Source: Luteibacter sp. Sphag1AF | GTDB lineage: Bacteria; Pseudomonadota; Gammaproteobacteria; Xanthomonadales; Rhodanobacteraceae | Assembly (NCBI RefSeq): GCF_014192715.1 | Contig: NZ_JACHYH010000001.1 | Coordinates: 248,001-312,000, forward strand | Length of the DNA stretch: 64,000 bases | Direction of reading: 5' to 3' | The notes under the pieces: generated by a model | Told to the model about the DNA's origin: nothing | Databases searched by the model: none | Seen by the model: the letters and a program-made list of their open reading frames with translations, nothing else | Part shown: positions 1 to 10,213 of the stretch, piece by piece | How the letters are laid out: the number at the start of each line of letters is the position of its first letter | Numbering within the stretch: the first letter of the stretch is position 1 | Made by a program: the position numbers and the translations under genes

Positions 1-1897
1 GAGGCTTTTTCACGACAGCTGCTGAAACCTTGCGCGCCGTCCCTGACTTGCCGACCGCGGACTTCACGGCAGCACGCTTCGCGGTCGTTTTTTTCGCGCT
101 GACCACTTTGGCCTTTGCCGGTTTTGCGACAGCCGCGCGGGCAACGGTTTTCACCGTCGTTTTCCGCACCGCCGACTTCGTCACTGCCGCTGTCCGGCCG
201 CCCGACTTCTTCACCGCAGCCTTCTTCGCAGCTACCTTGCCGGTAGCCGTCTTGCGTGCCGCGGGTTTACGCACAGCCTTTTTCGCGGCTGGACTACTCG
301 TTTCAGCACTATCTGACGCCGCGGACTTGCGCGCACTGACACGTCGCCCCGCCGGGTCCACGTTGGCGTTGAGCGGGCGCCACGAACGACCGCCCATCGC
401 AAGCAGGGTGTCCGACGACGCTGGTCCCGCACTGCCCGACGCATAGTTCGGAAAATCAGCCGGAGTACGCTGCGCCCAGTCGTCCAGCACCGGCTGCACG
501 GCGCGCCAGCAAGCCTCGACCATGTCCGCGCGCTGGAACAGCGTGGCGTCGCCGGTCATGCAGTCGTACAGCAGTGTTTCGTAGCCCACGTTGGGCTCGG
601 CACGGAACCAGTCTGCGTACTTGAAGTCCATGCGAACGGGGGCAAGCTCCACACGCGGACCAGGACGCTTCACATCAAACTGAAGGGAAATGCCTTCGTC
701 CGGCTGAATCTGCAACACCAGCCAGTCCGGCCCGAACGCATCCATGCCGGTGCCACGGAACGGAGCAAAGGGCGCGGACTTGAAGCGGATGGCAATTTCC
801 GTCGTGCGCCGGGTCATGTGCTTACCCGTGCGCAGGTAGAACGGCACGCCTGACCAACGCCACGTGTCGATGGCAAGCTTCATTGCCACGAAGGTTTCCG
901 TGACCGAGTCAGCCGCCACATCGGGTTCTTCACGATAGGCACGGGCCAGTGCACCAGCAACGGCGCCCGGGCCGTACTGACCGCGTACGGCATCTTCCGG
1001 GCCAATGGGACGAATGGCTTCGATGGCCTCGGCCTTGCGCGTGCGTACGGCTTCAGCGTCAAAAGAACTGGGCGGTTCCATCGCCACCATGGCGAGCAAC
1101 TGGAAGAGATGGTTCGGCACCATGTCACGCAGGGCACCGGTCTGCTCGTAGAACGAACCGCGACGTTCCACACCCACGGTTTCAGCCACGGTGATCTGCA
1201 CGTGGTCGATGCGATCACGGTTCCAGATCGGCTCGAACAATCCGTTGGCAAAACGGAACGACAGAATGTTCTGCACCGTTTCCTTGCCGAGGAAATGGTC
1301 AATGCGGTAAATCTGATCTTCGCGCAGCACCTTGCCGATGCGTTCATTGAGTGCCACGGCAGAGGCCAGATCATGACCAAACGGCTTCTCGATGATCACG
1401 CGGCGCCAGAAACCGTTGTTGTCTTCAGTGAGCCCGGCTTCCTTCAGCTTCTCGATCACATCGCCGAAGAAACGCTCGGGTGTGGCGAGATAAAAGAGCA
1501 CATTGCCTTCGGTGCCGCGCTTACGCTCAATGGCTTTGAGCTTCGTCGCCAGGCTGCTGAAAGTGCTGGCGTCGTCGAAGTCGCCAGCGTGATAGGTCAT
1601 GCGGTCGGCGAGCCAGTCCCATGCCTCGTTGTCCAGCTTGCCCGAGCCCCCCGCGTTGCCCACATAGCGCTCCAGCGCGCCACGCAGATTGCGCTTCCAG
1701 GTGGCATCGGCAAGCTTGCCGTGGTTGACGCCGACGATGGAAAAATTGTCAGCCAACAGGCCGGTGCGACGCATGTTGTAAAGCGCGGGCACCACCAGCC
1801 GGCTGGTAAGGTCGCCACTGGCGCCGAAGATCACCACCGTACAGGGATCGGCGGGATGCGACCGCGACATCGCGCGCTTCGGTTGGGCTTGGCTCAT
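1..1897 (-). CDS. zwf: Glucose-6-phosphate dehydrogenase with basic C-terminal tail (3' end cut by window)
   Basis: Oxidises glucose 6-phosphate to 6-phosphogluconolactone with reduction of NAD(P), the entry to the oxidative pentose phosphate and Entner-Doudoroff routes. The nucleotide-binding GASGDL motif is at residues 25-30 and the substrate/catalytic signature RIDHFLGKE at 198-206. The ATG at 1897 has an AAGGAG ribosome site about 8 nt upstream. The ordinary G6PD body ends near GGRSWRPL at about residue 509. The frame then stays open for at least 120 more codons to the window edge. Residues 536-632 hold 30 Lys/Arg and no Asp/Glu, in AAKK/AVKK-like units similar to histone H1 or AlgP tails. 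G6PDs are usually about 480-510 residues, so this one (at least 632) is an extended form. It lies 33 bp downstream of the GH15 gene on the same strand, so the two are probably co-transcribed. Confidence 0.95.
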
Positions 1898-1930
1898 GCA
1901 CGAACTCCTTTCAGACTGCGATAGTTGAAT

Positions 1931-3745
1931 TCAGGCGCGTTGCGCGACGGACTCGCCACGATGCACGTCGGCGGTCGCACTCTTCGCATGGGTCATGCTG
2001 AAAGCAGCGTTGACCAGTGCCACATGCGAAAAAGCTTGCGGGAAATTCCCCAGCAGCCGCTTACTGCGCGGATCGTACTCCTCCGCCAGCAAACCCACAT
2101 CGTTGCACAGGCCGACCAGGCGAAGAAAAAGCTCACGGGCATCCTCATGGCGCCCGGTGGCAACGAAGTTTTCCACCAGCCAGAAGCTGCATGGAAGGAA
2201 CTCACCCTCGCCCGGCGGCAGGCCATCCACACCCGTCTGCGTGTGGTAGCGGCGAACAAAACCACCGACCATCAGATTCGTCTCGATGGCCTCGATGGTC
2301 TTCAGCACACGGGGGTCATCGGGCGGCAGGAAGTCGGTCAGCGTGACCAGCAAAAGGCTCGCATCCAGATGCTCCGAACCGTACGCCTGCACGAAGTAGC
2401 CGTGCTCCGGGTGCACGCCGTTGGCAAGAATGTCCGCATGGATCTCGTCCGCCAGCTCGGCCCATCGCGCCGTAAGTGCAGGATCGCGTCCGTCACGCAC
2501 CTGGTCGGCCGCGCGACGGAATGCCAGCCACGCCATGACTTTGGAATGCACGAAATGTTGCGGCTCGCCGCGGATTTCCCAGATGCCCTCGTCCGGCGTC
2601 CGCCAGATGCCCGCGAGGTGGTCGAGAAAGACTGCCTGGACACTGTCGTCTTCCGGCTTCATGTTCACGCCGTTGCGCAGTGCGTGATCAAACGCACCCA
2701 CCAGTTCGCCGAAGATATCCAGCTGAAACTGTTCGGCGGCTGCATTGCCTATGCGAACGGGACGGGAATTCTCGTATCCGGGCAGGAAATCCAGTTCGTG
2801 TTCATGCATGCGCCGCTCACCCGCCAGGCCGTACAGCACCTGCAACTGACCGGGTGTGCCCGCAATGGCACGACGTACCCAGTCACGCCATGCCGCAGCT
2901 TCGTCGTGATAGCCCGCGTTGACGAGGGCGGTGAGCATGTAGGTCGCATCCCGGGCCCAGCAGAAACGATAGTCCCAGTTGCGCGAGCCGCCGATGTGCT
3001 CGGGCAGCGAGGTCGTGGGCGCAGCGACCAGACCGCCAGTAGGCAGGTAACTCAGACCCTTCAGCGTAATCAGTGAACGACGCACGATATCCGACCATTC
3101 GCCCGTACCGTTGCATCGGGACGACCACTCTTCCCAGAACGCCGTGGTTTTTTCCAGCGCATCCGCAGCGTCGATGGGATCGGGTGCGGGCAGATGCGAC
3201 TGGCCGTAGGTCAACACGAATGGGATGGACTCGCCCGCGTTGACGGCGAAGTCGGCCACGCTGTGGAAGTCCTTGCCCTCCAGTTCTACGGGGCTGCGCA
3301 AAATCAGGAGATCCGGGCCTGCAACCGCCCGCGTCGAGCCGTCCTCCTGGCGCACCACCCAGGGGATGCTGCAACCGTAGTCGAAACGGATGACCAGATC
3401 GGTCCCGAAATCCACGCGCCCTTCCAGGCCTTCGACAATACGCACAATGCCGACGGCGTCGCCCACGATGGGCATGAAATCCACGACGCGTGCCCGGCCC
3501 GTGGACGTGGTCCACACGGTTTCCAGGACAAGACTGCCGTCGATGTAGGAACGCGTGCTGGTGGCCTCGGCGTCATGCGGAGCGATCAGCCAGCGGCCGT
3601 GTTCGTCGGTACCCAGCAGGGCCGCAAAGCACGCCGCCGCGTCGAAGCGGGGCACGCACATCCAGTCGATCGAGCCGTCGCGCCGCACCAGGGCGGCGCT
3701 TCGGCAGTTGCCGATCATTGCGTAATCTTCAATGCGTGCCGCCAT
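1931..3745 (-). CDS. Glycoside hydrolase family 15 protein (glucoamylase/trehalase-like)
   Basis: A 604-residue cytoplasmic protein with no signal peptide. The N-terminal beta domain begins with the family's usual IEDYAMIGNCRSAALV. The (alpha/alpha)6 catalytic domain carries RNWDYRFCWARD (255-266), EGIWEIRG (386-393) and EEYDP (555-559), whose acidic residues are the likely catalytic pair. GH15 enzymes release glucose from alpha-glucans; some bacterial members with the EIRG signature are trehalases. Substrate cannot be decided from sequence. zwf follows 33 bp downstream, so the product glucose, once phosphorylated, could enter the pentose phosphate pathway. No typical trehalose-synthesis partner (otsA/otsB) is visible in the window. 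Confidence 0.88.
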   Translation of the reverse strand: MAARIEDYAMIGNCRSAALVRRDGSIDWMCVPRFDAAACFAALLGTDEHGRWLIAPHDAEATSTRSYIDGSLVLETVWTTSTGRARVVDFMPIVGDAVGIVRIVEGLEGRVDFGTDLVIRFDYGCSIPWVVRQEDGSTRAVAGPDLLILRSPVELEGKDFHSVADFAVNAGESIPFVLTYGQSHLPAPDPIDAADALEKTTAFWEEWSSRCNGTGEWSDIVRRSLITLKGLSYLPTGGLVAAPTTSLPEHIGGSRNWDYRFCWARDATYMLTALVNAGYHDEAAAWRDWVRRAIAGTPGQLQVLYGLAGERRMHEHELDFLPGYENSRPVRIGNAAAEQFQLDIFGELVGAFDHALRNGVNMKPEDDSVQAVFLDHLAGIWRTPDEGIWEIRGEPQHFVHSKVMAWLAFRRAADQVRDGRDPALTARWAELADEIHADILANGVHPEHGYFVQAYGSEHLDASLLLVTLTDFLPPDDPRVLKTIEAIETNLMVGGFVRRYHTQTGVDGLPPGEGEFLPCSFWLVENFVATGRHEDARELFLRLVGLCNDVGLLAEEYDPRSKRLLGNFPQAFSHVALVNAAFSMTHAKSATADVHRGESVAQRA

Positions 3746-8446: not shown

Positions 8447-9571
8447 TCAGAACAGCCACTGGCCCAGGCGCACCAGACCGTAGGCAACGGCCGCGGTGAT
8501 GGGCAACGTCAGAATCCAGGCCCACACCATCCGCTCGACCACCGACCAGCGGATGGCGTTGAAGCGCTTGGCCGCGCCCACGCCCATGATCGACGCGGAC
8601 ACGTTGTGCGTGGTGGATACGGGCACGCCCATCAGGGATGCGGACAGAATGACCGCTGCCGAGCTGGCTTCAGCCGCGAAGCCATTGATGGGGTGAAGCT
8701 TGACCATCTTGTGGCCCAGCGTCTTGATGATGCGCCAGCCACCGCCCGCCGTTCCTGCGGCCATGGTCAGCGCACACACGACCTTGACCCACACGGGAAT
8801 CGGGAAACCGCCGGCAGCCGCGTTGTCGTGCTGAATGCGCAGGAAGTGCAGGAACGTGGGCAGATGCTCGAACTGCCCCGCCGCCGTCGCGCCAGCCAGC
8901 GCCAGGGCGATGATGCCCATGCTCTTCTGGGCGTCGTTCATGCCATGGGACAGGCCCATGGCGCTGGCCGACAGAATCTGCGCCTTGCCGAAGAAGCTGT
9001 TGACGAAGGGCGTGCGGCCCAGGCGATGCAGCGGGCCCTTCTGACTGGAGAACCAGCCCAGCATGGCGTACAGCCCGCCCATGACCACGAAACCGATGCT
9101 GAAGCCGAGCAGCGGCGACACGACCATCGGCACGATCACCTTGGGCACGATGCCCTTGCCTGCCCACCAGTGCGCACCACTCTCAAACCAGATGATGGAA
9201 TGAATGTTGTCGCCGGAGGCCGCCATGGCCGCGCCGCAGAGGGCACCGACCAGCGCATGGCTGGAACTGGACGGCAAGCCGAGCCACCAGGTGATGAGAT
9301 TCCATATCGTGGCCCCGAGCAGCGCGCTGATCAGCAACTGCGAGCCCACCTCGACCACGCCCGAATCAATCAGGCCTGACGCGATGGTGGCTGCCACGGC
9401 CGTGCCCCACAGGGCACCGGCCAGGTTCGTGACCGCTGCCAGCAGGACCGCCTGGCCCGGGGTCAGCACCTTGGTGGCGACCACGGTGGCGATGGAATTG
9501 GCCGTGTCGTGGAAGCCGTTGATATAGGTAAAAGCGAGTGCGATCAGGACGACCGCGAAAACCATGCTCAT
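8447..9571 (-). CDS. Pit-family inorganic phosphate transporter
   Basis: A 374-residue inner-membrane protein of the PiT family (Pfam PHO4), which takes up metal-phosphate complexes by symport. The two PiT signature repeats are visible: GFHDTANSIATVVATK near residue 20 and SHGMNDAQKSMGIIALAL near residue 210. Around ten hydrophobic segments are present. The shorter length compared with E. coli PitA (499) is typical of the type paired with a DUF47 partner. It starts 12 bp downstream of the DUF47 gene and is almost certainly translated from the same message. Confidence 0.93.
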   Translation of the reverse strand: MSMVFAVVLIALAFTYINGFHDTANSIATVVATKVLTPGQAVLLAAVTNLAGALWGTAVAATIASGLIDSGVVEVGSQLLISALLGATIWNLITWWLGLPSSSSHALVGALCGAAMAASGDNIHSIIWFESGAHWWAGKGIVPKVIVPMVVSPLLGFSIGFVVMGGLYAMLGWFSSQKGPLHRLGRTPFVNSFFGKAQILSASAMGLSHGMNDAQKSMGIIALALAGATAAGQFEHLPTFLHFLRIQHDNAAAGGFPIPVWVKVVCALTMAAGTAGGGWRIIKTLGHKMVKLHPINGFAAEASSAAVILSASLMGVPVSTTHNVSASIMGVGAAKRFNAIRWSVVERMVWAWILTLPITAAVAYGLVRLGQWLF

Positions 9572-9583
9572 GGGTCGCAGCCG

Positions 9584-10213
9584 TCAGGAGTTCTTGAGCA
9601 CGATGGAGTAGACGACATTGCCCACGTCACGGCACTTGTCGACTGCTTTCTCGATCAGCTCGAACAGATCCTTGGCCAGGATGGCGCGAAGCGGGTCCGA
9701 ACCTTCCGCGTAAAGCGTGCGGTAGGGGTCAAGCAGAAGGCGGTCGGCCTCCGATTCCAGCGCGTGCAGCTGGTCACGCAGCTTCTTGACCGGGTCGATG
9801 CGCAGCCCACGGCGCAGTTCGCCGATCATGGCGACCACGACCTCGGCCGAGCTTTCCAGCAGCGCCGCGCGCTGGCTGAAGTCGATACCGGTCAGACGAT
9901 CTGCGACGATGACGTAGCGTTCGGCGAACTTCTCGATGGTCTTGGGGATTTTATAGAGCGCGGAATTCAGCGCCTCGATGTCCTCGCGATCCAGCGCGGT
10001 AACGAACGTGTTCACCAGTTCCTCGCCGATCTGGCCGTGCAGCGCCTTTTCACGGGCACGGGCCGTGCTGAAGGCGGCCATCACGGGGGTGCGATCCGGG
10101 CGGGTAACCAGCTCATGCATCGCCTTGGCGCTTTCGCAGGCGGCTTCCGCGCTGGCTTCTAGCAGCCCGTAGAACTTGTCGCCCTTACCGAACATCGTCT
10201 GGAGTGAAAACAT
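9584..10213 (-). CDS. DUF47/PhoU-like Pit accessory protein
   Basis: A 209-residue all-helical cytosolic protein of the DUF47 (TIGR00153, PhoU-related) family. Its repeated heptad-like helices (ASAEAACESAKAMHELV; REKALHGQIGEELVNTFVTAL) fit the PhoU fold, which binds metal clusters. The family is routinely encoded next to low-affinity phosphate transporters and is thought to modulate them. It is the first gene of the pair with the Pit gene. A poor match to a PHO box lies 18 bp before the start, so phosphate control is possible but unproven. Confidence 0.88.
   Translation of the reverse strand: MFSLQTMFGKGDKFYGLLEASAEAACESAKAMHELVTRPDRTPVMAAFSTARAREKALHGQIGEELVNTFVTALDREDIEALNSALYKIPKTIEKFAERYVIVADRLTGIDFSQRAALLESSAEVVVAMIGELRRGLRIDPVKKLRDQLHALESEADRLLLDPYRTLYAEGSDPLRAILAKDLFELIEKAVDKCRDVGNVVYSIVLKNS

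Follow-up and report, generated by a model that had tools for sequence, protein, structure and literature searches.

The zwf2 gene of Luteibacter sp. Sphag1AF encodes a second glucose-6-phosphate dehydrogenase (G6PD) isozyme that carries, behind a complete catalytic core, a basic C-terminal tail of 158 residues, predicted to be disordered, whose charge is apparently under natural selection. We read the tail as tethering the enzyme to a polyanion, with the nucleoid as the likeliest target, and the isozyme is co-encoded with a trehalase-like hydrolase; judged from sequence, this reading is put forward with about even confidence.

The window analysed is a stretch of 64,000 nucleotides (G000:C1:248001-312000), and zwf2 lies at its left end on the minus strand. 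As the sequence-only reading had described, the frame runs past the normal G6PD end up to the window edge, being open over window positions 2-1897 (632 aa). The leftward extension which that reading had proposed did find the stop: beyond window base 1 the frame goes on leftwards for another 104 bases, the stop codon counted, giving a protein of 666 aa (L004 7897-9897, minus strand). An AAAGGAG motif, read from the sequence at 1905..1911 (minus strand) before the ATG, is the likely ribosome-binding site. The catalytic core (374..1897, minus strand; residues 1-508 of 666) is matched by Pfam G6PD_N and G6PD_C (PF00479/PF02781) and by TIGR00871 (zwf), the latter over residues 18-507 with 588.9 bits against a cut-off of 400.6; the entire core is thus shared with the G6PD family, above the curated cut-off. 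The active-site residues R198, D200, H201, K205, D258 and H263 are invariant across 29 aligned rows.

The tail occupies window positions 1..373 (minus strand; residues 509-632) and continues to residue 666 left of window base 1. The extent of 1-361 assigned to it earlier was real but slightly too short, since the tail proper comprises 1-373 plus the 104 bases outside. Its 158 residues include 28 Lys, 18 Arg, 41 Ala and 3 Asp/Glu, and a recount of residues 536-632 confirmed the 30 Lys/Arg (23 Lys and 7 Arg) and the absence of Asp/Glu reported for that segment. When the DNA of residues 536-632 was base-shuffled 20,000 times, no shuffle matched its Lys/Arg count with zero acidic residues, and a stop codon was present in 18,901. 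AlphaFold2, run on the 632 window residues with 28 relatives, gave a mostly confident G6PD core and modelled residues 511-632 as coil with pLDDT of about 30-37, by which the tail is predicted to be disordered.

A sequencing artefact fusing two genes had been thought unlikely, and a sequencing or assembly artefact is rejected here because the same in-frame basic tail occurs in 48 other genomes. A GH15-G6PD fusion, hinted at by frames in genus g67 that stay open for about 1200 aa, was dismissed when GH15 was found in a different frame (G283 coordinates, by hand). A separate small H1-like protein may be made from an internal start, but as to ATG starts the Met directly ahead of the tail (LLAM), shared by g1, g12 and g58, is replaced by Leu or Ile in g7, g11, g67, g85 and g90.

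With the zwf2 core as query (E ≤ 1e-150), 398 genomes sampled from the order were searched and 49 proved to have the zwf2 type: 21 belong to the same genus, 25 to a sister family and 3 to further genera of the family. Every one of the 49 copies has a basic tail, 49-158 aa long, one copy being weakly basic. In the 48 tails measured by script, the Lys plus Arg fraction is 0.25-0.36 and stays so across a tail GC content of 0.60-0.80, the net charge is +10 to +43, and the composition over the 48 has Arg at 0.11 beside Lys at 0.19. The weakest tail is that of L132 (genus g7), with 17 Lys/Arg, 7 Asp/Glu and a net charge of +10. The remaining copy, L131, failed the tail-boundary rule and is outside both the measured tails and the selection pairs below; read directly, its tail has 19 Lys, 8 Arg and 1 acidic residue in 84.

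Selection on the tail was assessed in 19 pairs sharing no member, chosen from 209 close pairs. dN/dS was 0.14-0.50 in tails versus 0.00-0.16 in cores, several tail dS values being close to or over 1. New acidic residues in tails numbered 13, against 73.5 expected under random placement of the same base changes, and Lys/Arg gains or losses 124, against 265 expected; the protein-guided tail alignment favours Lys/Arg matching and affects the acidic count less. An alignment of 23 tails has only 2 invariant columns, and with so few acidic gains it follows that charge and composition are kept while sequence is not. The tail charge thus appears, from these comparisons, to be under natural selection, and this hints at an enzyme bound to a polymer of negative charge, DNA or some other. 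That the tail is instead a low-complexity extension, neutral to selection and left behind when a stop codon was lost, would fit its variable length and sequence, with those 2 invariant columns, but we consider this very improbable, as charge conservation in the 19 pairs is far above the neutral expectation, the tail is retained in 49/49 copies, and TRF returned 0 rows for tandem DNA repeats in the zwf2 tail, a result by which tandem-repeat expansion is rejected too.

Outside the order, the zwf2 type was found in 20 of 369 genomes of a class draw and 74 of 398 of a phylum draw, with Sphag1AF itself counted in both. The copies of the other genomes amount to 93 loci (one genome being in both draws and two having two copies), all of which were read, and none of the 93 has a basic tail: 54 stop within 20 aa after the core match, and 39 have an in-frame C-terminal domain of about 150 aa resembling a cyclic-nucleotide-binding domain, one being truncated where its contig stops. 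These 39 (L197, L200, L203, L204, L205 and 34 more) are mostly from family f217, with small genomes, and Pfam cNMP_binding matched both loci scanned (L197, 6.4e-19; L205, 2.1e-18). To judge from its sequence, this form is possibly a cyclic-nucleotide-gated G6PD, for which a literature search found no report. Among 48 named non-Luteibacter loci, 45 lack a basic tail and end no more than 25 aa past the core match, and L070, L104 and L105 run off their stretch. A cryptic or frameshifted tail in such named relatives, considered because the match of L063 reached query residue 615, was rejected, as the tail was matched at the zwf2 3′ end in four Luteibacter loci only. The other G6PD of the Sphag1AF genome, the zwf1 paralogue (L002/L003), also ends without a tail. 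The view that such a tail is unusual for a G6PD therefore holds in that neither the zwf1 paralogues read nor the 93 outside loci have the 158-aa addition seen in zwf2; it does not hold as a peculiarity of one gene, the tail being the form of zwf2 in 49/49 copies of the order. Several G6PD variants have been described in about half of the Xanthomonadales species examined (PMC8546961), and the word 'C-terminal' is absent from the main text of that paper.

For a quick tree without bootstrap, 78 cores were used, including those of 18 of the 49 tailed copies; the program flagged long outgroup branches. In it the 18 tailed rows form one clade (SH-aLRT 99) inside tail-less, mostly alphaproteobacterial zwf2. 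The nearest group consists of eight named alphaproteobacterial rows (support 86 for the group, 94 for its union with the tailed clade), and further out most rows are again alphaproteobacterial, the others being two from Acidobacteriota MAGs and one from the class of Sphag1AF. On this topology zwf2 probably entered the order by horizontal transfer, and the tail would have been gained once, in the ancestor of the order's tailed copies.

The likeness of the tail to H1 and AlgP, proposed from the sequence at the outset, stands as to composition, and weak HC2 and H1-like matches agree with it; those matches are nonetheless below curated cut-offs. On the 632 window residues, Pfam HC2 scored 21.4 against a cut-off of 40, and the H1-like models NF038053 and NF038052 scored 19.9 against 80 and 18 against 135; for the tailed copies L132 and L133 an H1/HC2-type match at E ≤ 0.001 was not found. 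According to PMC9239181, the tail of AlgP binds DNA and the protein associates with polyphosphate (polyP) granules in Pseudomonas; the same paper describes tandem repeats of KPAA and an N-terminal domain predicted to be alpha-helical. AlgP and zwf2 have in common a long disordered Lys/Ala-rich C-terminal tail, whereas zwf2 lacks the KPAA tandem repeats, by TRF and by reading of the sequence, contains much Arg, and has G6PD domains over its N-terminal 507 residues in place of an AlgP-type N-terminal domain. PhaF of P. putida likewise joins a functional domain to a disordered tail, which PMC3574117 describes as DNA-binding, but its core binds polyhydroxyalkanoate (PHA) and that of zwf2 is a dehydrogenase.

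Other proteins with such tails were sought with the zwf2 tail itself and a profile of 23 tails as queries. Five genes matched in the Sphag1AF genome: zwf2, TopA, MetJ and two H1/HC2-like proteins. Apart from zwf2 the E-values were weak (8e-4 to about 1), though the basic stretches are plainly readable. The MetJ repressor (L217:1492-2139) has an AAKK-type C-terminal stretch of about 130 aa. Eight other tailed genomes were searched with the profile and six matched at E ≤ 1, with six zwf2 tails, TopA in three genomes, and MetJ, an H1-like protein, Ku and a PhaE-like protein in one each; two weak profile matches, L236 and L237, had no basic frame and were left out. In G011 and G006 the profile gave no match even for their own zwf2 tails and is thus insensitive, which leaves the list of tailed proteins incomplete. 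An AAKK-type tail was seen on Ku in G033 (L232:529-1674) and a long one on a PhaE-like protein in G034 (L233:655-1764), which adjoins a class III PhaC. In Sphag1AF, too, a class III PhaC adjoins a PhaE-like protein, whose C-terminal end is a short basic stretch (L225:712-2732).

TopA, MetJ and Ku of the order resemble zwf2 in placing AAKK-type composition on a conserved core; their cores are those of DNA proteins, unlike the G6PD core of zwf2, and G6PD is not known as a DNA protein. From composition and from these other carriers, the target of the zwf2 tail would be DNA, polyP or another polyanion, and the nucleoid is preferred mainly because most of the other carriers act on DNA, which is circumstantial. 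Against a tether count the sub-cut-off H1/HC2 similarity, the weakly basic tail of L132 and the PhaE-like carriers.

A tie to polyP granules, or to polyP generally, in the manner of AlgP in Pseudomonas appears unlikely to us, though a real contender. AlgP, with its similar tail, does localise to polyP granules (PMC9239181); Sphag1AF has two PP_kinase (PPK) genes, and at a distance of about 6.5 kb from zwf2 there is a gene for a PHO4-type phosphate transporter. PPK was, however, also matched in 7 of 14 control genomes, the transporter gene is not adjacent to zwf2, no known polyP gene is among the scanned zwf2 neighbours, and DNA-acting proteins form the majority of the other carriers found. The transporter gene is at window positions 8447-9571, and a 209-aa frame beside it (9584-10213) gave no Pfam match at E ≤ 0.001. 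Much the same low probability is given to a tail that binds RNA, ribosomes or an acidic membrane, or that affects the enzyme itself (its oligomer, activity or solubility), with no nucleoid role. Any disordered chain of strong basic charge could do so, and the computed results do not tell these targets apart, but the other carriers found are mainly DNA proteins.

A PHA-free organism, suggested by PF07167 staying below its cut-off, was rejected: the locus in question is recognised by the class III PhaC model (528.1 bits against a cut-off of 365.3), and PHA is therefore kept as a rival. The tail would then bring the enzyme to PHA granules, or to an interface of PHA and nucleoid, where it would supply NADPH for PHA synthesis. 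The class III PhaC and the PhaE-like protein with its short basic end in Sphag1AF are in keeping with this, as are the long basic tail of the G034 PhaE-like protein and the linking of a PHA-binding domain to a DNA-binding tail in PhaF (PMC3574117). The PhaE-like proteins of Sphag1AF and G034, however, both fall under the curated cut-off (128.7 and 148.3 against 154.95), pha genes are absent among the scanned zwf2 neighbours, and Pfam finds no phasin-type part in zwf2, so that this role seems rather improbable.

Directly upstream of zwf2 lies a trehalase-like GH15 hydrolase gene (1931..3745, minus strand; TREH_N and Glyco_hydro_15), which NCBIfam trehalase models match below their cut-off (387.8 versus 820). 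It holds this position, on the same strand, in 47 of the 49 tailed loci; it was not seen there in the 1509 bases available for L133 (g12) or the 871 available for L138 (g90). The gene that follows zwf2 in g12 is small and P-loop kinase-like (AAA_33, SKI); our guess is a gluconate kinase. In two alphaproteobacterial-type loci, L064 and L067, zwf2 is immediately preceded by sequence coding for a 6-phosphogluconate dehydrogenase domain, which makes a role of zwf2 in the oxidative pentose phosphate pathway likely.

Taking the nucleoid tether as the preferred reading, we infer that the second isozyme, probably acquired horizontally, gained its disordered Lys/Arg/Ala-rich C-terminal tail once, and that the tail would act as an electrostatic tether by which the enzyme, presumably an oligomer, is kept on a polyanion of the cell, in all likelihood the DNA of the nucleoid. 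As to purpose, the putative enzyme activity would produce NADPH and 6-phosphogluconolactone at the tether site, in part from glucose that the co-encoded trehalase-like GH15 hydrolase would release. A broader version, which we regard as speculative, is that in this order the H1-like tail made a whole pentose phosphate isozyme nucleoid- or granule-bound, fed by the trehalase-like enzyme and yielding NADPH locally, with a tether interchangeable with those of TopA, MetJ, Ku, PhaE and H1-like proteins.

A tailed G6PD was not found in the titles and abstract openings searched, which covered few subscription journals and no bioRxiv preprints. If the preferred reading is true, zwf2 would be a natural example of an enzyme of central metabolism with a chromatin-type anchor, retained in two bacterial families, and one can test whether the cell positions its redox power at the nucleoid or at storage granules. 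Ready-made controls for that question are the paralogue without a tail, present in the same cell, and the alphaproteobacterial relatives, which lack a tail as well.
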